Assembly (NCBI RefSeq): GCF_014077095.1
Contig: NZ_JACGVG010000037.1
Coordinates: forward strand, 1 to 64,000
Direction of reading: 5' to 3'
DNA: 64,000 bases
DNA from: Colwellia sp. MB02u-6
Lineage (GTDB): Bacteria > Pseudomonadota > Gammaproteobacteria > Enterobacterales > Alteromonadaceae
Shown piece by piece: positions 7,818 through 42,080 of this stretch (position 1 is the first letter of the stretch; each line of letters opens with the position of its first letter). The translations under genes and the position numbers were made by a program. The notes under the pieces are model-generated. The model searched no databases and was not told the DNA's origin. It worked only from the letters and a program-made list of their open reading frames with translations.

Positions 7818-8015
7818 AATTGAATATAACAGTTAGGCGAAAAAAGTAGGCGACAAGGTTTATTTCCCAGAGCTAATTAATAGCATTCTACAGGGGCGTT
7901 TTTAACTTAGGTTTATAGGGTTTAACTAAGTTTCAACTAGGGATGTTAATGCTGAATTTAAATTTTTAGGTGAACTAAACTCGCTGTTAACTCAGTTCAC
8001 TAACGATAATTAGCG

Positions 8016-8648
8016 CTATTTCTTGCTGTCTTCTTGATCAATTATATCAAAAGCTGGCAAGGTTACGCGCCAATAAATAGCCGCTAAACGTAACGACAAT
8101 GCACCCAATATTGAGCCAATAATAGCGATATGCTGGGGTAAGTCAAAATATAGCAATAAGGTATATAATGTGCCCCCTAAGATAGCGGCGGTAGCATAAA
8201 TTTCTTTTCTTAAAATCATTGGAATTACATTGCACAATACGTCGCGTATCATGCCGCCAGCAACGCCTGACATTGTGCCCATAACAATGGCGACAGGAAC
8301 TGCCGCGCCAAGGCTGAGTGCTTTTTCAGTACCCAGTACAGCAAATAATGCTAAACCAAAGGCGTCAGAAACCAATAATAGTCGTTTGGGAATGCGTTTT
8401 GGGCAACGAATAAAAATAATAGTCAGTACCGCAGTAGCCAAAATGACATAAAGATAAACCGGATTTTCTACCCAAAATACTGGCGTTTGTAGAATTACAT
8501 CGCGAATGGTGCCGCCGCCAATCGCGGTAACCGCAGACAACACCACCACACCAAATGGGTCAAGTTTATAGCGCCCGGCCATTAATGCCCCTGAAAAGGC
8601 AAAAACAATAACGCCAAACAGATCAAGCCGATAGAGTAATTCTGACAT
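8016..8648 (-). CDS. TRIC/UPF0126-family membrane protein (YicG-like)
   Basis: A 210-residue integral membrane protein with about seven hydrophobic segments, made of two homologous halves. Each half carries the family signature: AIGGGTIRDVILQTPVFWV near residue 43 and GVAGGMIRDVLCNVIP near residue 128. Bacterial members of the trimeric intracellular cation channel family share this GGxxRD repeat and conduct monovalent cations in vitro; the physiological role in gammaproteobacteria is not settled. The next gene on the strand (rhodanese) ends 20 bases upstream of its start, so the two are probably co-transcribed. Some annotations call this family trimeric intracellular cation channel protein. 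Confidence 0.85.
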   Translation of the reverse strand: MSELLYRLDLFGVIVFAFSGALMAGRYKLDPFGVVVLSAVTAIGGGTIRDVILQTPVFWVENPVYLYVILATAVLTIIFIRCPKRIPKRLLLVSDAFGLALFAVLGTEKALSLGAAVPVAIVMGTMSGVAGGMIRDVLCNVIPMILRKEIYATAAILGGTLYTLLLYFDLPQHIAIIGSILGALSLRLAAIYWRVTLPAFDIIDQEDSKK

Positions 8649-8668
8649 TTGTTAAAGTACTTATTTGC

Positions 8669-9058
8669 TTATTTTATTAGAGGTAGATCGGCAGCTTGCC
8701 AAGCATTCATATCGCCATCGAGATGGCGAAGATCACTAAAGCCGGCAGCACGTAAATCATTTTCAGCACTTAGTGCACGACGGCCTGAGCGACAAAGCAC
8801 CACTACAGTTTGATCTTTCAAGTCGATAATTTTATTCATATTTGCATTAATTTTCTTATGGCTGATATTAATTGCGCCTTCAATATGGCCTTTGGTAAAC
8901 TCTTCAGCCGCACGCACATCTAATATCACGGTTTTATTCGCAGGCGTTGCCATTAAGGTTAACAATGCTTGCTGTGAAATAGTGGCGGTTTGCTCAGCAA
9001 AAGTAAAAAGTGAGAATGCGCTCAATAAAACAGCTAATGTTGTGGTGATAAATTTCAT
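8669..9058 (-). CDS. Periplasmic single-domain rhodanese
   Basis: A 129-residue protein with a Sec-type signal peptide (MKFITTTLAVLLSAFSLFTFA, likely cut after FA-E) and one rhodanese domain. The active-site loop CRSGRR is intact (Cys about residue 89) and is preceded by VVVL; the HIEGAINI stretch and the C-terminal LDGDMNAWQAADLP are typical of the fold. Rhodaneses carry a persulfide on the loop cysteine and transfer sulfane sulfur; the periplasmic acceptor here is unknown. It is followed at 20 bases by the TRIC-family gene. Start ATG 9058 is supported by AGGAATTT just upstream. Confidence 0.87.
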   Translation of the reverse strand: MKFITTTLAVLLSAFSLFTFAEQTATISQQALLTLMATPANKTVILDVRAAEEFTKGHIEGAINISHKKINANMNKIIDLKDQTVVVLCRSGRRALSAENDLRAAGFSDLRHLDGDMNAWQAADLPLIK

Positions 9059-9278
9059 AATAAATTCCTATAATGTAGTAAAAATCTAGCCTTTACTTAA
9101 AGTAAGGTATTTTAAAGTGACTTGTGTTTTAGGCTTGATAGTTTAGCAAAATTGCGGTGATAGCAAAGGTTTTTAATCGCCATTTAATCGTCATTTAACA
9201 TAGCAAACAGTTGTCATACCCATTGCTATCACGTTATCTGAGTTTGAATAACTTAGTATTAGATTTGAAACTGAAACA

Positions 9279-10259
9279 CTACTTACCCTGACCAGCAACA
9301 GAATAGGAAATTATGGCCAATAGCATCAGCAATAAAATAAACAGATATAATGCGTAATTTATCCGTTTGCTAGCATGAATAATGTCAGTGACTTGCGGTT
9401 GCCTTGCTTGGTCATTAAAACTGTTTTTACGGACTTTATCACCATTATACATAGCGACACCGCTCAATTTTATTTCTAAACTTAAGGCCAGTACATGTAA
9501 TAATATGGCGTTGTTTGTTTGAAAAAACTTGCCCCTGATTAAACGCCAATACAGCAAGGTATTTTGACCAACTGTGCCAAGTAAAAGCAGCAAGGAAAAT
9601 AAGCGTGACGGCAACCATTGTAGTAGTTTAACGATATAATTTACCGCCGCGCCAAAGTTCGAAAAACGCGCAAGTTTTATATTCCAAGCATAATGCATTT
9701 CAAGTAATAAACGAAAAGTTAATGCCGCTAATGGACCAAACAGCAGATAATAAAAGCCCACGCAAACCAGCAGTTGTGAGCTACGTAACACTTGCATTTC
9801 AATGCAGGCTTTACTCACGCCTAACGGCGATAGTTGCTTGGTATCACGTAATAAATATGGCGCTATTTTTTGTTTTGCTTGGTAATGGTTATTGGCAACT
9901 AACTCCCGTGCCACCCCTTTGCAGGTTTTAGTTAAACCCAAGCTGCCTAATGCAAAGTAAAGTAATAACGCTTGCCAAAGCCAAGGCACCTCAATAAACA
10001 TTTCAAATAGCCATAAGATCATAATTAATGGCACTAAAGTTACCAAGATAGCGATTAAGCCTGAAATTTTTTGTTGGCGTGGACTACCACTTTGTTGATT
10101 CACTTTGTCGGCTAGGCGCTGACAGTAAAAATTGAAAAAAACTAACGGTTGCTGAGTAACAAACTGACTGATTAACGCTTTTAACGCTATGAGCAATAAT
10201 AGCGTTATAACGGCAGAATACAGCTCTGAGCTGGTTAGTATATTACTCAGGTTTGCCAT
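9279..10259 (-). CDS. CbiB/CobD-like membrane protein, orphan of the cobalamin pathway
   Basis: A 326-residue membrane protein of the CbiB/CobD family, whose characterised members attach aminopropanol to adenosylcobyric acid. Segments resembling the family include ACIEMQVLRSSQ, FYYLLFGPLAALTFRLL and FSNFGAAVNYIVKLLQWLPSRL (the family's N/D-W-P-R-L turn). No cobalamin genes lie nearby. It overlaps the mtnN stop by one base (ATG/TAA overlap), so the two are translationally coupled. Similar orphans next to the nucleosidase gene are, to my knowledge, common in marine gammaproteobacteria, usually annotated as cobalamin-biosynthesis family protein. The real substrate may differ from cobyric acid. 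Family confident, function not. Confidence 0.75.
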   Translation of the reverse strand: MANLSNILTSSELYSAVITLLLLIALKALISQFVTQQPLVFFNFYCQRLADKVNQQSGSPRQQKISGLIAILVTLVPLIMILWLFEMFIEVPWLWQALLLYFALGSLGLTKTCKGVARELVANNHYQAKQKIAPYLLRDTKQLSPLGVSKACIEMQVLRSSQLLVCVGFYYLLFGPLAALTFRLLLEMHYAWNIKLARFSNFGAAVNYIVKLLQWLPSRLFSLLLLLGTVGQNTLLYWRLIRGKFFQTNNAILLHVLALSLEIKLSGVAMYNGDKVRKNSFNDQARQPQVTDIIHASKRINYALYLFILLLMLLAIISYSVAGQGK

Positions 10260-36980: not shown

Positions 36981-37450
36981 GAAGATACCTGTAATTAAGC
37001 TAACTATTATTTATAGGGGCGATTTATTGACGATATTTATGGGTCGAGTTATCTGAAAATACCGGCGTTACTTTAAAAAAAAATTATAATAATGACAGGG
37101 CAAACTTAGCGAGTATTCATTAATACAGCCGTAGTGAATATGTCATAGTGCTGCGTAGTTTACGCGAATTTAATTATCTCGCCATCTTTAGTCCACAGGG
37201 AGTAAGCTATTTTGACCCAGTTCAACTTATCGGGCGAAGCTTATTTTAGTGATGGGCACTCTAGTTATTGGGGACAAGATCGTGTTTACTTATTATAAAA
37301 ATAAATAAAACCAGTAAAATCAATCTATTAAATATAAAAATCGGCATACGTCTAGCCGTCTATTGACTGCGCTTATATTTAAATGTTTTAATATTGTTGT
37401 CCCTTATTCCAGTGTAATTAATCGTAAAAAATTAATCATCGCCAATAAAG
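36981..37450. other. Divergent region upstream of the lysine riboswitch
   Basis: No supported gene in about 470 bases. A 33-codon open stretch ending near 37242 (protein-like FSPQGVSYFDPVQLIG) has no start context and is left uncalled. A possible promoter for the riboswitch transcript is at 37363-37392 (listed separately). Confidence 0.4.
37363..37392 (+). promoter_or_regulatory. Candidate sigma-70 promoter of the lysine-riboswitch operon
   Basis: TTGACT at 37363-37368 and TTTAAT at 37387-37392, with an 18-base spacer rich in A/T. It lies about 60 bases before the aptamer, which fits a transcript starting just upstream of the riboswitch. The -10 match is only moderate. Confidence 0.4.
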
Positions 37451-37695
37451 GGCCAGAAGAGGAGCGTTAACCAGGTAGTTATTGTGAAGAGATCAAACTC
37501 TAGTGAACAATAATGAGGGGGTTTAACGCCGAGGTAATTGTTTGCTTGATAAGGCAATTGCCGGTTGTTAAGGCTTAGTTGTTAATATATAACCATTAAG
37601 TTTTATAGTCATTGGATACGTTCGATGGCTACTAGGTTGAATCCTTGCAACTGTCACCTAATTAGGTGGAGAGCTTCTGGCCTTTGTAAAGGCCA
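37451..37695 (+). ncRNA. Lysine riboswitch
   Basis: The aptamer is closed by a perfect P1 stem GGCCAGAAG (37451-37459) / CTTCTGGCC (37674-37682). Inside are the landmarks of the lysine (L-box) class: GAGGAGCG right after P1, a P2 stem GCGTTAA (37464-37470) / TTAACGC (37523-37529) followed by CGAGG, and the strongly conserved 3' part CTGTCACC-taatta-GGTGGAGAGCTTCT. Lysine riboswitches control lysine synthesis or uptake genes, and the next gene is a dapA homologue. At 232 nucleotides the aptamer is long for the class. Directly after it, GGCCTTT/AAAGGCC (to 37695) competes with the 3' strand of P1, giving a plausible switch. Confidence 0.9.
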
Positions 37696-37735
37696 ATTTC
37701 ATCCTAGAAATTTTGTCTGTACAAGCGCCTAAAAG

Positions 37736-37766
37736 TTCTCCGAACGACAAGAGTTCGAGAGAAATG
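37736..37766 (+). promoter_or_regulatory. Hairpin abutting the dapA start codon
   Basis: TTCTCCGAAC (37736-37745) pairs with GTTCGAGAGAA (37753-37763, one bulged A) around a seven-base loop; the stem ends at the base before ATG 37764 and covers the purine-rich GAGAG. It could hide the ribosome-binding site, making the riboswitch act on translation. There is no T-run, so it is not a terminator. Confidence 0.5.
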
Positions 37767-38774
37767 AATCAAAAAAAACTGATAGAAAATCACCTGATAA
37801 CAGACCGACCTTTGGTTTGGACCGCATTGATCACGCCATTATTTGATGATAGCGGCATTGACTATGTTAGTTTACGTAACCTAGTGTTACAACAAAATGC
37901 GGCCCACAATGGCATTTTATTACTGGGCAGCACGGGCGAGGGTTTAGCGTTAACCGCGCAAGAGCATTTAAGTATAGTGCAATACGTTTGTGCGATGACG
38001 TTACAAGTGCCGATAATGGTTGCTGTTGGCGGCTACAATCTTAATGAGCAACTGGCCTGGATAGCTAAATGCAATAAATTGCCGGTAAAGGCTTACTTAC
38101 TTACTAGCCCTATTTATGCCAAGCCGGGGCCCGTAGGGCAAGCCGCTTGGTTTAAACGTTTACTCGATGCCGCAAACGTCCCTTGTATGCTTTATAACGT
38201 GCCTTCACGTAGCAGTGTTGAAATTTCCTTTTCGGCCTTACAACAATTACAAGACCATAAAAACTGTTGGGCACTGAAAGAAGCCAGTGGCGATCTTAAT
38301 AAACTGCTGGCCTATAGAGAGCATTGCCCTAACATTGACTTGTATAGTGGTGAAGACGCCATGATGCCATACCTTGCGAGTGCCAATGTTAAAGGTTTGG
38401 TGTCCGTTTGCGCTAACGTTTGGCCAGAAGCTACTAGGCAATATGTTGCTATGGCCTTAGCTCATCAACATGAAGGACTTTTTCCGCTTTGGCATAAAGC
38501 GATATCGGCATTATTTCAAGTGTCTAGTCCGATCCCGGTAAAAGTGTTAATGGCTGAGCTGAATATTATTGGCTCGGCAAAACTTCGTCTACCCTTATGC
38601 CAAGCAGAACTTTCAGCGCAACACGGTTTACTCGACATTCATCAACAAATTCAGCAATGGTTAGTGAGTAACAGCAGCAAGCCTCTAGCTCAGCATCACA
38701 CTACTGATTACCTTTTAAGTGCACAAACCCCTCACCCTTTAGATTTAATTAACTTACGAGCAATAAAATCATGA
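37764..38774 (+). CDS. dapA: DapA-family 4-hydroxy-tetrahydrodipicolinate synthase
   Basis: DapA condenses pyruvate with aspartate semialdehyde, the first committed step to diaminopimelate and lysine. The catalytic set is present: GSTGEGLAL (threonine pair replaced by Ser-Thr, as in some homologues), YNVPSRSS with the proton-relay tyrosine, and [10 protein letters not shown] with the Schiff-base lysine, 28 residues after the tyrosine as in E. coli. The C-terminus runs about 35 residues past the usual end ([15 protein letters not shown]...). I prefer ATG 37764; an in-frame TTG at 37713 would add 17 polar residues across a strong hairpin. It overlaps dapD by four bases (ATGA), so translation is coupled. 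It is the first gene after a lysine riboswitch. Other DHDPS-superfamily lyases are less likely given the neighbours. Confidence 0.85.
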
Positions 38775-39520
38775 CTTGGCAACAAACATTAACAGACTTA
38801 GAAACCGGTAAAGTTCGTGCAGCAGAACAAAATAGCGATGGCACTTGGCAAGTCAATACCGCTGTTAAACAAGCCATTTTAGCGGTATTTAAAGCCGGAG
38901 AAAACACTGAGTTCGATGGTATTTATCGTGGCTTTGTGGATAAGGATAACTTACCTGCACGCGAGTTCACCGTTGCTGATAAGGTAAGAATGGTGCCGGG
39001 TGGTTCATCGGTTCGTTGTGGTGCCTATGTGGCGCCAGGTGTAATTATTATGCCACCGGCCTATATTAATGTTGGCGCTTTTGTTGATAGCGGGACTATG
39101 ATTGACAGCCATGCTTTGATTGGCTCATGCGCACAAATAGGCAAAAATGTTCACGTTTCTGCCGCGGTACAAATTGGTGGTGTGCTTGAGCCGATTGGTG
39201 CTAGTCCGGTGATTATTGAAGATAACGCCTTTTTAAGTGCTGGCGTGATTATTGTCGAAGGCATTGTCGTGAAAAAAGGAGCGGTGTTAGCCCCAGGCGT
39301 ATCTTTGTCGGCCTCGGTAGCTGTTTATGACTGTGTTAATAATGTGATATTGGAAAAAGGTTCTGACATTCCTGAAAATGCGGTTGTGGTGCCGGGTACA
39401 CGACCGGTTGCGGGTGATTGGGCTCAGCAGCAAGGACTTAACATGGCTTGCGCATTAATTGTTAAATATCGAGATGAAAAAAGTAATGCCGCTTTAGCAC
39501 TTGAATCTGTACTGCGTTAG
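38771..39520 (+). CDS. dapD: DapD-like tetrahydrodipicolinate N-succinyltransferase
   Basis: A left-handed beta-helix acyltransferase of 249 residues (E. coli DapD has 274). Hexapeptide repeats run through the middle: [20 protein letters not shown], then [20 protein letters not shown] and [16 protein letters not shown], which closely follow DapD. DapD adds a succinyl group to tetrahydrodipicolinate to protect the amine. The N-terminal domain is shorter than in E. coli and parts ([12 protein letters not shown]) lean toward other hexapeptide transferases, so acetyl-CoA use is a lesser possibility. It starts inside the end of dapA (ATGA) and is followed nine bases later by the LysA-like gene. 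Confidence 0.82.
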
Positions 39521-39529
39521 GATCAAAAA

Positions 39530-40792
39530 ATGACTGCCATGTTAAATTCGACAACTAGGCCAAACTGGCTTAGACCTGCTGTACTTGCAGCGCTAGCACA
39601 GCACAGTGAAACACTTAAAAACAGTGTGGAAGCTGAGCAAGATGAAGACGGTTTTTTTCTTTATGATTTAGACTACCTTGAGCAACACTTGTCGGTGTTA
39701 ATGCAACAAGAGGTGATTAAACTCTGGTTTGCTGTTAAGGCTAATCCCTTGTCGCGTGTAATAAGCACCTTAGCGCAGCAAGGTTTTAATTTTGATGTGG
39801 CGAGTCAAGGCGAATTAACGCAAGTATTAGCACAAAATGTTCAAGCCGATTGCATTCTCAATACCGGTCCGGCCAAATCAAAGCGACAAATGAAAGCCTT
39901 TTTAAGCCAAGGTGTGCGCACTTTTGTCGTGGAGAGTTTGAACCAGTTGCAATGGCTTAATGAAGCAGCAATAGAATTGGCTTGCCAACCACAAGTATTA
40001 TTAAGAGTACAATTACAGTGGCAAGAAGGTGAAAAAAATCCTTTAGGAGGTAATGAAGTGACGCCTTTTGGTTTATCTTGCCAAGAGTGGCAAACCATAA
40101 AAGTTAGTCACTTTCCGGCGTTAAATATTAATGGCTTGCATATTTTCCAATGGGGAAATATGCTCTGCAATGCTCGAATGTATGAGCTTTGGTCACAAAT
40201 GGTCACGCCATTGTTATCGCTCGCAGAACAATTGGGCATGAGGTTAGAAGTCTTAGATTTGGGCGGTGGCCTAGGTGTCGATTACCTGCAAACAGGGCAA
40301 GGCCTAAGCTGGAAAAAAATTGTTGCTGACTTAGCCAAAATAAAAGCACAGGCAGGTGTTAGCGAACTCTGGCTAGAGCTAGGTCGTTTTGCCGTTGCTG
40401 ACATGGGTTATTACGTGACTTCGGTTGTTGACCGTAAAAAAAACTTTCAGCAGCAACAATTAGTACTTGCCGGTGGCATTAATCATTTAATTCGCCCGGC
40501 AATTACTGAACAGCCTTTTCCTGTCGCCATGCTGAGAGAGTCAGCAGCAAGCCCTTGTTATTTTGATCTACATGGCCCGCTTTGTACCAGTTTAGATAAA
40601 TTGGGTACCTTGGCAATAGCCAGTGACGTTGATGTGGGTGATCAATTAATTTTAGGTTTAGCAGGCGCTTATGGCTTTACTGAAAGTATGCCGTTTTTTC
40701 TTTGTCATCAAATTGCGGCTGAATATGTTTTACAGCAAGGCAAAGTTGAGCAAGTACGTGCAGCAGAGCCTGCCGCTTGGTATTTACGTTAA
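39530..40792 (+). CDS. LysA-like PLP-dependent decarboxylase (fold type III)
   Basis: A 420-residue alanine-racemase-fold decarboxylase of the DAP/ornithine/arginine decarboxylase-2 family. PLP binds Lys70 in LWFAVKANPL, and the phosphate loop LEVLDLGGGLGVDY is intact. The second active-site half shows GPLCTSLDKLG (the cysteine of the C-x-x-x-D motif) and LAGAYGF (PLP tyrosine). In this position LysA normally decarboxylates meso-diaminopimelate to lysine. Departures from canonical LysA are LHIFQWGNML in place of H-x-H-x-G-S, and ELGR in place of EPGR, features seen in decarboxylases of secondary pathways. So the substrate is likely DAP by context, but not certain. An AGGA site precedes ATG 39530. 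Confidence 0.8.
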   Translation: MTAMLNSTTRPNWLRPAVLAALAQHSETLKNSVEAEQDEDGFFLYDLDYLEQHLSVLMQQEVIKLWFAVKANPLSRVISTLAQQGFNFDVASQGELTQVLAQNVQADCILNTGPAKSKRQMKAFLSQGVRTFVVESLNQLQWLNEAAIELACQPQVLLRVQLQWQEGEKNPLGGNEVTPFGLSCQEWQTIKVSHFPALNINGLHIFQWGNMLCNARMYELWSQMVTPLLSLAEQLGMRLEVLDLGGGLGVDYLQTGQGLSWKKIVADLAKIKAQAGVSELWLELGRFAVADMGYYVTSVVDRKKNFQQQQLVLAGGINHLIRPAITEQPFPVAMLRESAASPCYFDLHGPLCTSLDKLGTLAIASDVDVGDQLILGLAGAYGFTESMPFFLCHQIAAEYVLQQGKVEQVRAAEPAAWYLR

Positions 40793-40831
40793 CCTAGTCA
40801 ATAAAGTCGTTCGATTGGTAAGAGATTATTT

Positions 40832-41980
40832 ATGAATTTAATCAGTAAAGAAGTGATGCATGTGGGTGAAATGGCCAGTGGTGCTGCGCTTACCGTGCCG
40901 GTGTATCGTATTAAGGGTAAACAGCAGGGGCCTGATGTTTATATACAGGCTAATATGCATGGCGCAGAAGTGCAGGGCAATGCGGTTATTTTTCAGTTGT
41001 TAGAGCAATTAAAAACCCTTGAATTAAATGGTAGCATTACGCTCGTGCCTTATGCCAACCCTGTCGCTTGTAATCATAAAAATGGGGAATATACCTTAGG
41101 ACGATTTGATCCCATTACCGGCGTTAATTGGAACCGGATGTTTCATTTCGATGCTGATATTATTGCGCCGTTTGTACAAGCGCATTTAACCGCGACTAGC
41201 GCTGAAATTGAGCGAGCGTTTAAAGTATTACTGCTGCAGCAAATAACTGAAAAGTTAAATCATAATATTTATGGCCTGACGACAGGGCAACGTATTGCCT
41301 TTCAACTGCAACGCCTAGCACATCAAGCTGATATTGTTTTAGATCTGCACACTGGGCCGATTTCCAGTAAACACTTGTATTGCCCTGAATATGCCATAGC
41401 CAGTGCAAAATACTTTGATATTCCACATACTTTATTGATTCCTAACGACTTTGATGGTGCCTTAGATGAAGCCACTTTTTGTCCTTGGTGGCAGTTACAG
41501 CGGACCTTTGCTGCCCTTGGTCGTGACTTTCCTATAACTAAAACTGAGGCTAATCAAGACCAAAGTGTTATTATCAAAGAGAGTTTTACCGTTGAGTTGG
41601 GCTCACAAGAGCAGATTGATTTAGAGGTTGCCCGTGAAGATGCTTTAGGTATTTTAAGTTATCTACAGTATCAAGGGGTGATCAATAGCCAAGATTACCA
41701 GCCGAAAACCATGATGCGTTATAGCTGTATGTTAGCCGATTATAAGGCACTATATTCACCCATGGGCGGGATGGTTGATTACTTGGCTCAATTTGGTCAG
41801 CCTTTAGCGGCAGGAGAGCCCTTAGCGCGTATTCTACGTATGGATAATTATGGTGATGGTGACCCATTGCACTATATAACGTTAGATCATAGTGTCATAC
41901 CGATTTTGCATTTTGCTTCGGCGAGTGTCAATCAAGGTACTGAACTCTATAAAGTATTTAGTAGGTTTAATATTTTATAG
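40832..41980 (+). CDS. AstE/AspA-family zinc deacylase in a lysine-riboswitch operon
   Basis: A 382-residue M14-like zinc hydrolase of the succinylglutamate desuccinylase/aspartoacylase family. The metal ligands are His43 and Glu46 in MHGAEVQGN and His173 in LDLHTGP; the substrate-binding motif is GVNWNRMF (Asn101-Arg102) and the general base is Glu255 in FTVELGSQ. A C-terminal beta domain follows (SPMGGMVDYLAQFGQPLAAGEPLA, quoted as the biotinyl-like fold; split at FGQ). The family removes acyl groups from amino-acid amines. As the last gene of a DapA-DapD-LysA cluster, it is the obvious candidate for removing the succinyl group from N-succinyl-diaminopimelate, a job normally done by DapE (M20). 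Bidirectional terminator follows. The role is inference; the family is firm. Confidence 0.82.
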   Translation: MNLISKEVMHVGEMASGAALTVPVYRIKGKQQGPDVYIQANMHGAEVQGNAVIFQLLEQLKTLELNGSITLVPYANPVACNHKNGEYTLGRFDPITGVNWNRMFHFDADIIAPFVQAHLTATSAEIERAFKVLLLQQITEKLNHNIYGLTTGQRIAFQLQRLAHQADIVLDLHTGPISSKHLYCPEYAIASAKYFDIPHTLLIPNDFDGALDEATFCPWWQLQRTFAALGRDFPITKTEANQDQSVIIKESFTVELGSQEQIDLEVAREDALGILSYLQYQGVINSQDYQPKTMMRYSCMLADYKALYSPMGGMVDYLAQFGQPLAAGEPLARILRMDNYGDGDPLHYITLDHSVIPILHFASASVNQGTELYKVFSRFNIL

Positions 41981-41994
41981 TCGTGCATTTCAAC

Positions 41995-42038
41995 AAAAAA
42001 AGCGCCTTGATGTAGCCTTAAATTAAGGCGCTTTTTTT
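41995..42038. terminator. Bidirectional terminator between the lysine operon and darP
   Basis: AAAAAAAGCGCCTT (41995-42008) and AAGGCGCTTTTTTT (42025-42038) form a 14-bp stem with a 16-base loop and have T-runs in both directions. It serves both the plus-strand operon and the minus-strand darP gene. Confidence 0.92.
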
Positions 42039-42080
42039 GTGTCGTTACCCGGCTATTATTTTTTAATAGCGATTTAAGCC

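Follow-up and report, generated by a model that had tools for sequence, protein, structure and literature searches.

A lysine riboswitch operon of Colwellia with a LysA-like decarboxylase and an AstE/AspA-type hydrolase: a possible lysine branch with late deacylation

A four-gene operon behind a lysine riboswitch

The DNA analyzed here (the window) is a stretch of 64,000 nt from Colwellia sp. MB02u-6 (NZ_JACGVG010000037.1, forward strand), to which all window coordinates refer. It contains a lysine riboswitch followed by four genes, called here dapA2, dapD2, lysA2, and AstEx, which encode homologues of DapA, DapD, and LysA and a zinc hydrolase of the AstE/AspA type. This layout had been put forward in the original prediction, and it was borne out by Rfam and protein family models. 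The open reading frame (ORF) coordinates also agreed with the predicted spacing, namely, a 4-base overlap between dapA2 and dapD2, a gap of 9 bases between dapD2 and lysA2, and a gap of 39 bases between lysA2 and AstEx. The features are as follows (PLP, pyridoxal phosphate; DAP, diaminopimelate).

37449..37684, + strand: lysine riboswitch aptamer RF00168 (cmscan 90.4 bits, E 1.8e-22, gathering score 30)
37667..37763, + strand: probable expression platform (from the folds of two stretches and the sequence)
37764..38774, + strand: dapA2, 4-hydroxy-tetrahydrodipicolinate synthase homologue, probable start (TIGR00674, 245 bits, cut-off 206)
38771..39520, + strand: dapD2, tetrahydrodipicolinate N-acyltransferase paralogue (NF008808, 296 bits, cut-off 204)
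39530..40792, + strand: lysA2, PLP decarboxylase of the LysA/SbnH/BtrK group, predicted N-acyl-DAP decarboxylase
40832..41980, + strand: AstEx, AstE/AspA-type zinc hydrolase, predicted N2-acyl-lysine deacylase (PF24827, 104 bits, cut-off 25)
42015..42039, + strand: terminator-like hairpin and T run behind the last gene (pattern scan)

The aptamer was the sole Rfam match above the gathering score within the window, and the whole genome holds two lysine riboswitches, this one and another preceding lysC. The longest dapA2 ORF starts at a TTG (37713). A GAGAG and a stable hairpin directly precede the alternative ATG at 37764, which is probably the true start. The 3′ part of the aptamer (37667-37676) is able to pair with 37733-37742, and an alternative hairpin (37736-37763) covers the GAGAG; the z scores of the folds of the two stretches against shuffled sequence were -4.6 and -4.1. 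Because the 3′ part of the aptamer can pair with the 5′ arm of the hairpin that covers the GAGAG, this arrangement suggests translational control of the operon. The terminator-like site at 42015 is weak alone, as the pattern scan found 7 such sites in the region compared to 5.5 expected.

The four-gene order recurs in Colwellia, Thalassotalea, Pseudoalteromonas, and Psychrobium loci, and this recurrence across genera rules out a chance operon. A scan of the species collection gave 51 AstEx loci. A riboswitch-like element was found 5′ of the first gene in 48 of them by a two-motif search, which had no chance control and gave about 10 stray matches elsewhere; the exceptions were L044, L054, and the cut-off locus L060. 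When 12 of the 51 loci were scanned with Rfam, a lysine riboswitch was found in 10, and the misses were again L044 and L054. In these two Pseudocolwellia loci (8001-10087), AstEx stands alone and is followed by a DMT/EamA-like permease gene.

AstEx does not stand in for DapE

The AstE_AspA_cat domain (PF24827) was clearly recognized in AstEx, and the predicted residues His43, Glu46, His173, and Glu255 were invariant in all 36 aligned rows. No NCBIfam model scored above its cut-off (DoeB, 41 of 403 bits), and a Peptidase_M14 match fell just short of its cut-off (21.3 compared to 21.6 bits). AstE is succinylglutamate desuccinylase, and both AstE and DoeB, zinc hydrolases of the same AstE/AspA family as AstEx, remove an N2-acyl group from an L-amino acid. 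Among solved chains, 3fmc and 3lwu are full-length relatives of AstEx (410 bits each). They are named putative succinylglutamate desuccinylase or aspartoacylase, and a literature search with the structure codes found no function for them; the codes 8ein and 8eip likewise led to nothing relevant.

The original prediction assigned AstEx the place of a missing DapE, and this part did not hold. First, the genome carries a canonical dapE (556 bits, cut-off 362), as well as a canonical lysA (549 bits) and dapD (478 bits), on other contigs; the gene search in this genome covered these three. On the side of the genes, this goes half of the way to what the original prediction named as its refutation, a functional dapE together with the full lysine pathway elsewhere. 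Second, in a sample of 147 genomes of the family, 91 had an AstEx match at E < 1e-40 (weaker matches, to the first 80 residues, represent a paralogue), and 89 of the 91 keep dapE above the cut-off, the exceptions being G076 (84% complete) and G118 (97% complete). Beyond the family, dapE was above the cut-off in 25 of 26 AstEx genomes, the exception being G174 (92% complete). Third, AstEx fits no DapE model; it matches PF24827 and, weakly, the M14 and DoeB models, and the dapE of this genome is a separate gene. Since dapE is present here and in nearly all of the AstEx genomes examined, AstEx is no replacement for a missing DapE, and this role is rejected. What stands of the original interpretation is that a lysine-pathway operon senses lysine, includes an AstE/AspA-type hydrolase, and keeps its gene order across loci.

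LysA was above its cut-off in 36 of 37 genomes chosen for LysA2 or its near kin (exception, G237), and in locus L008 a dapF-like frame follows lysA by our own reading of the translation. G174, which has a canonical LysA, belongs to a family sampled by two genomes, the other of which had no LysA2 match. Its locus L094 (1002-4857) reads short dapB-dapD2-lysA2-AstEx, has no Rfam riboswitch, and lies between mgtE- and pmbA-like genes; such genes also lie near the operon of the window.

The same counts bear on an alternative in which the operon would duplicate the ordinary pathway under repression by lysine, AstEx desuccinylating N-succinyl-LL-DAP beside DapE, DapF making meso-DAP, and LysA2 being a diverged DAP decarboxylase. 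The pathway-like homology of all the genes and the riboswitch control fit this duplicate, and so does G174, with AstEx and a canonical LysA and no dapE above the cut-off. The presence of dapE in nearly every other AstEx genome speaks against it. With the evidence on LysA2 and its coupling to DapD2 described below, we regard it as unlikely.

LysA2 lacks the residue with which LysA reads the distal amine

The lysA-like gene had been taken as an ordinary lysA, which was not supported: LysA2 scored 190 bits on the LysA model TIGR01048, below the cut-off of 298, and a key LysA residue is absent. In the genomes chosen for LysA2 or its near kin, the LysA2 copies scored 152 to 215 bits on this model, with the minimum coming from a partial match. 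The LysA2 of the window shares 29% identity with the canonical LysA of its own genome, and it scored equally on TIGR01048 and on the exosortase-associated model TIGR03099, below both cut-offs. Among solved structures, the best match was 6knh, which is SbnH (PMC7139808), both in a single-sequence search (124 bits, compared to 111, 106, and 102 for DAP decarboxylases and 97 for BtrK) and in a profile search (172 bits, compared to 148 for BtrK and 146 downward for DAP decarboxylases). SbnH decarboxylates N-citryl-L-2,3-diaminopropionate, and BtrK decarboxylates a carrier-bound glutamate (PMC7857480).

The active site points in the same direction. In Thermotoga maritima LysA, Arg249 and Arg285 hold the distal carboxylate of DAP and Glu315 holds the distal amine, and the E315T mutant lost most DAP activity and preferred 2-aminopimelate, which has no distal amine (PMC8277567). 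In our alignment, Arg249 and Arg285 correspond to R286 and R322 of LysA2, and Glu315 corresponds to Thr353. The R, R, T pattern was found in 49 of 49 LysA2 rows, compared to R, R, E in 14 of 14 canonical LysA rows. The 49 rows (those shorter than 350 amino acids, L059 and L060, were left out) include many close Colwellia relatives and one record twice (L095 and L057, with identical proteins), and they are not 49 independent events; the 13 foreign canonical rows were hand-picked from the 36 genomes above the cut-off. An N-acyl-DAP would call for just such a pocket, in which the carboxylate is still gripped and the amine no longer is. Likewise, LysA2 has no acidic residue beside the catalytic Cys (Thr353), as is the case in decarboxylases of acylated substrates, where this position is Thr in SbnH and BtrK (by alignment) and Met in FigC (PMC7857480). 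In the tree, the LysA2 proteins grouped in a single clade separate from canonical LysA (100/100) and closest to two other decarboxylases, on long branches; 19 of the 49 LysA2 rows were left out, and the tree did not contain SbnH, FigC, or BtrK. The absence of the amine-binding Glu from every LysA2 row, together with the cost of E315T to a real LysA, argues against LysA2 being the DAP decarboxylase of a duplicate pathway. A LysA-related decarboxylase elsewhere (L118, G143 C22) has Thr at the Glu315 position and Ala at the Arg285 position, in contrast to LysA2.

The resemblance to SbnH raises the alternative that the operon makes a lysine-like special metabolite, such as a siderophore or an osmolyte, rather than lysine. 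The TIGR03099 score, as high as that of LysA, may be read in the same way, as may the LysA2 relatives on plasmid records, since the 30 of 68 listed include proteins with the annotation type III PLP-dependent enzyme or exosortase-associated decarboxylase; no relatives at ≥60% identity were found among the plasmid matches listed. Control by a lysine riboswitch and linkage with lysC, dapB, and dapA make this alternative very improbable. Furthermore, no transporter, ligase, or synthetase recurs beside the operon across loci; transporters were found only in single cases (an amino-acid permease in L130 and the EamA-type permeases of L044 and L054).

DapD2 and LysA2 are coupled

DapD2 was recognized by NF008808, scored 192 bits on TIGR00965 (cut-off 375), and is 42% identical to the canonical DapD of its own genome. 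For another sequence in this genome (G000 C29 138953-139162, L013), the match to the DapD model (93 bits) is confined to the C-terminal region of the model (201-270). By tblastn, 44 of the 51 AstEx loci contained both DapD2 and LysA2 and 6 contained neither (L033, L044, L049, L050, L051, and L054), the remaining one being the cut-off locus L060. Both were also present in L083, L084, and L094 to L096 (L095 is the same record as L057). LysA2 follows a dapD paralogue in every uncut locus. The two genes are thus coupled, and an ordinary LysA drawing on a shared meso-DAP pool, as the duplicate pathway would have it, gives no reason for such coupling. The first gene is less constant: a DapA2 match at 1e-20 was absent in 7 of the 44 loci. 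In L023 (5506-5859), dapA2 has shrunk to a 117-amino-acid remnant before dapD2-lysA2-AstEx. Psychrobium and its kin have the order lysC-dapA-dapD-lysA2-AstEx (6 of the 51 loci, plus L096 and L095, which repeats L057).

In a sample of 247 genomes of the order, LysA2 was detected at E < 1e-60 in 16, of which 15 also had AstEx, the 16th (G301) being a partial match. In the examined loci of this order, AstEx lies directly behind lysA2.

LysA2 also occurs in a second order. In a class sample of 369 genomes (threshold E < 1e-80), three genomes besides this one had LysA2, all of family f76 and with genomes of 2.0 to 2.1 Mb. Their loci (L129 to L131) have a lysine riboswitch followed by lysC-dapB-dapA-dapD2-lysA2, and the three LysA2 proteins, which are outside the 49 rows, keep the Thr and both Arg as read from the translations. 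An aminotransferase-like gene lies directly behind lysA2 in L131, upstream with an asd-like gene in L129, and behind its own, second lysine riboswitch (1470-1649) in L130. A dapE query found no match in the 10 to 16 kb around these operons (the sequence of L131 stops about 1.2 kb behind lysA2), and no dapF-like frame was seen in the ORF lists of these stretches. Short DapB-like reductases of 225 to 226 amino acids were found in L130 (4646-5326, 91 bits) and in L094 (1002-1679, 107 bits), below the cut-off of 122.

A possible lysine-only branch with late deacylation

These observations led us to propose that the operon encodes an offshoot of the diaminopimelate pathway that serves lysine alone and in which the acyl group is removed last, a reading to which we give a probability of just under one half (about 0.48), all substrates and the reaction order being deduced from sequence. 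DapA2, with DapB supplied from elsewhere, would feed tetrahydrodipicolinate to DapD2, which would N-acylate it, most likely with a succinyl group. A general aminotransferase would then yield N-succinyl-LL-DAP. LysA2 would decarboxylate the free L-amino-acid end of the acylated molecule to N2-succinyl-L-lysine, from which AstEx, acting like AstE on N2-succinylglutamate, would strip the acyl group to give L-lysine. The gene order dapA-dapD-lysA-AstEx is the order of these proposed reactions. DapE, DapF, and meso-DAP would be bypassed, the canonical genes would provide meso-DAP for the wall, and the riboswitch could turn off lysine synthesis without cutting into this provision. The stereochemistry would be consistent with such a route. 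Standard LysA acts on the D-centre of meso-DAP (PMC8277567), and SbnH and FigC act on L-amino acids (PMC7857480). The end of N-succinyl-LL-DAP that would be decarboxylated is an L-centre, so that no epimerase should be needed.

Somewhat more tentatively, we suggest an undescribed lysine branch, from N-acyl-LL-DAP through N2-acyl-L-lysine to lysine without DapE, DapF, or free diaminopimelate, that may occur in two or more orders of a single class, the acyl group being removed by AstEx in one order and by a different deacylase in the other. No description of N-succinyl-lysine as a lysine precursor, or of the proposed branch, was found in searches of the open-licence literature.

Evidence that weighs against the proposed branch

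Several observations weigh against late deacylation by this set of enzymes. The first group concerns LysA2. In the single-sequence search, three DAP decarboxylases ranked above BtrK, and the N-citrylornithine enzyme FigC (7kh2) was far below the DAP decarboxylases in both searches (76 bits by profile). All 49 LysA2 rows have Phe at the position of the PLP-stacking His of LysA. Moreover, other E315 mutants of T. maritima LysA mostly keep reduced DAP activity and E315T is still D-specific (PMC8277567), so that the Thr by itself determines neither the substrate nor the stereochemistry. A second group concerns DapD2. At the position that we take to be aligned with Glu189 of Mycobacterium bovis DapD (position counted by eye), the DapD2 of the window has Ile, and no residue reaches 80% in 47 rows. 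Because the aligned acid is absent, the acyl donor of DapD2, and even its substrate, is uncertain. As to the coupling, the search for DapD2 apart from LysA2 covered this genome alone. Third, an AstEx query found no match in the sequence around the f76 operons defined above, which in L131 extends about 1.2 kb beyond lysA2. The f76 operons strengthen the pairing of DapD2 with LysA2 and, at the same time, weaken AstEx as the only possible deacylase.

The fourth and largest group concerns AstEx without LysA2. This was the case in 27 of the 42 AstEx genomes of the order sample at the thresholds used. It was also seen in operons that read riboswitch-lysC-AstEx (L080, L082, L085 to L090, L092, and L093), in 16 stand-alone loci, and in reduced loci, four of which keep only dapA2-AstEx and two only AstEx. 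In family f6, which we take to be Shewanella, lysC lies directly 5′ of AstEx in 7 of 8 loci examined, as it does in L093 of family f15; L080 and L082 of family f1 have the same arrangement. Rfam detected the riboswitch in L085, L087, L089, and L093 but failed to find it in L091; in L086, L088, L090, and L092, the motif search alone showed it. AstEx without LysA2 under lysine riboswitches means that AstEx has, or had, a job independent of LysA2. A second DapE-like role, or acyl-lysine repair, would do, and the former would again suit the duplicate pathway, in which AstEx could serve with lysC as a second desuccinylase.

The latter leads to a further alternative, in which AstEx works outside the pathway as a lysine-salvage or repair deacylase or peptidase (acting on N-acyl-lysine or on DAP- or lysine-containing peptides), made when lysine is short, and the rest of the operon is a lysine isozyme set. 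The loci in which AstEx is accompanied by just lysC, by just dapA, or by neither would fit such a role, as would the weak Peptidase_M14 match. The near-constant company of LysA2 and AstEx in the order sample and the position of AstEx directly behind lysA2 speak against it, and the stand-alone proteins, which differ near the metal site, may have another substrate. We therefore consider this alternative quite unlikely.

The stand-alone genes were found in other genera of the family (L065 to L079 and L081), with neighbours that differ in most loci. An Rfam lysine riboswitch was present in 0 of the 16 loci (L073 has fewer than 300 bases upstream). Residues near the metal site are changed, for example Thr174 to Asn in 94% of the 16 rows, and so are others elsewhere (Arg336 to Asn). 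In the AstEx tree, from which 13 of 83 loci (near-copies) were left out, the 16 genes formed a separate clade with L080 and L082. The copies from the lysine operons, from Psychrobium and kin, and from the f6 lysC operons grouped together, in a set that also took in L044, L054, and L091. L091, L093, and L094 were long branches, and losses of dapA2, or of dapD2 with lysA2, were scattered over the tree.

Relation to known systems and implications

Compared with the succinylase branch (DapD-DapC-DapE-DapF-LysA), the operon has in common DapA and DapD homologues, acylated intermediates, and a PLP decarboxylation. It differs in having no DapE or DapF, in a decarboxylase without the Glu that reads the free distal amine of DAP, and in a hydrolase of another family placed after the decarboxylase gene.

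The original prediction also held that this make-up was not described, which is true only in part. A list entry of Mukherjee et al. 2017 gives a Pseudoalteromonas riboswitch operon as dapA-dapD-lysA-hypothetical1-hypothetical2 (PMC5584792), apparently the same operon with the same regulation. That entry labels the hydrolase position "hypothetical," treats lysA as a normal lysA, and offers no pathway. For C. psychrerythraea, the riboswitch is listed before dapD (PMC5584792), which fits the loss of dapA2 seen across loci.

With regard to the decarboxylase, SbnH, FigC/FslC, and BtrK share fold and group with LysA2 and act on acylated or carrier-bound L-amino acids in the service of siderophores or antibiotics (PMC7857480). 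Unlike these enzymes, LysA2 keeps the Arg for the distal carboxylate of DAP and sits in lysine operons. A precedent for keeping an acyl cap past the usual deacylation step is the arginine pathway of Bacteroides, with its probable late desuccinylation of N-succinylcitrulline (PMC7311316); that case differs in that it concerns arginine and that its candidate hydrolase is distantly related to DapE (PMC7311316).

Lysine and the cell-wall unit meso-DAP are normally made by one shared pathway, so that repression by lysine risks starving the wall. If the proposal is true, a branch that exits while the intermediate is still acylated would resolve this conflict, would uncouple the making of lysine and its control by the riboswitch from the supply of the cell wall, and would give a core amino acid a new route. 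Annotation would be corrected as well, as LysA2 is easily called diaminopimelate decarboxylase, and AstEx is a member of a group with two solved structures for which no function was found.

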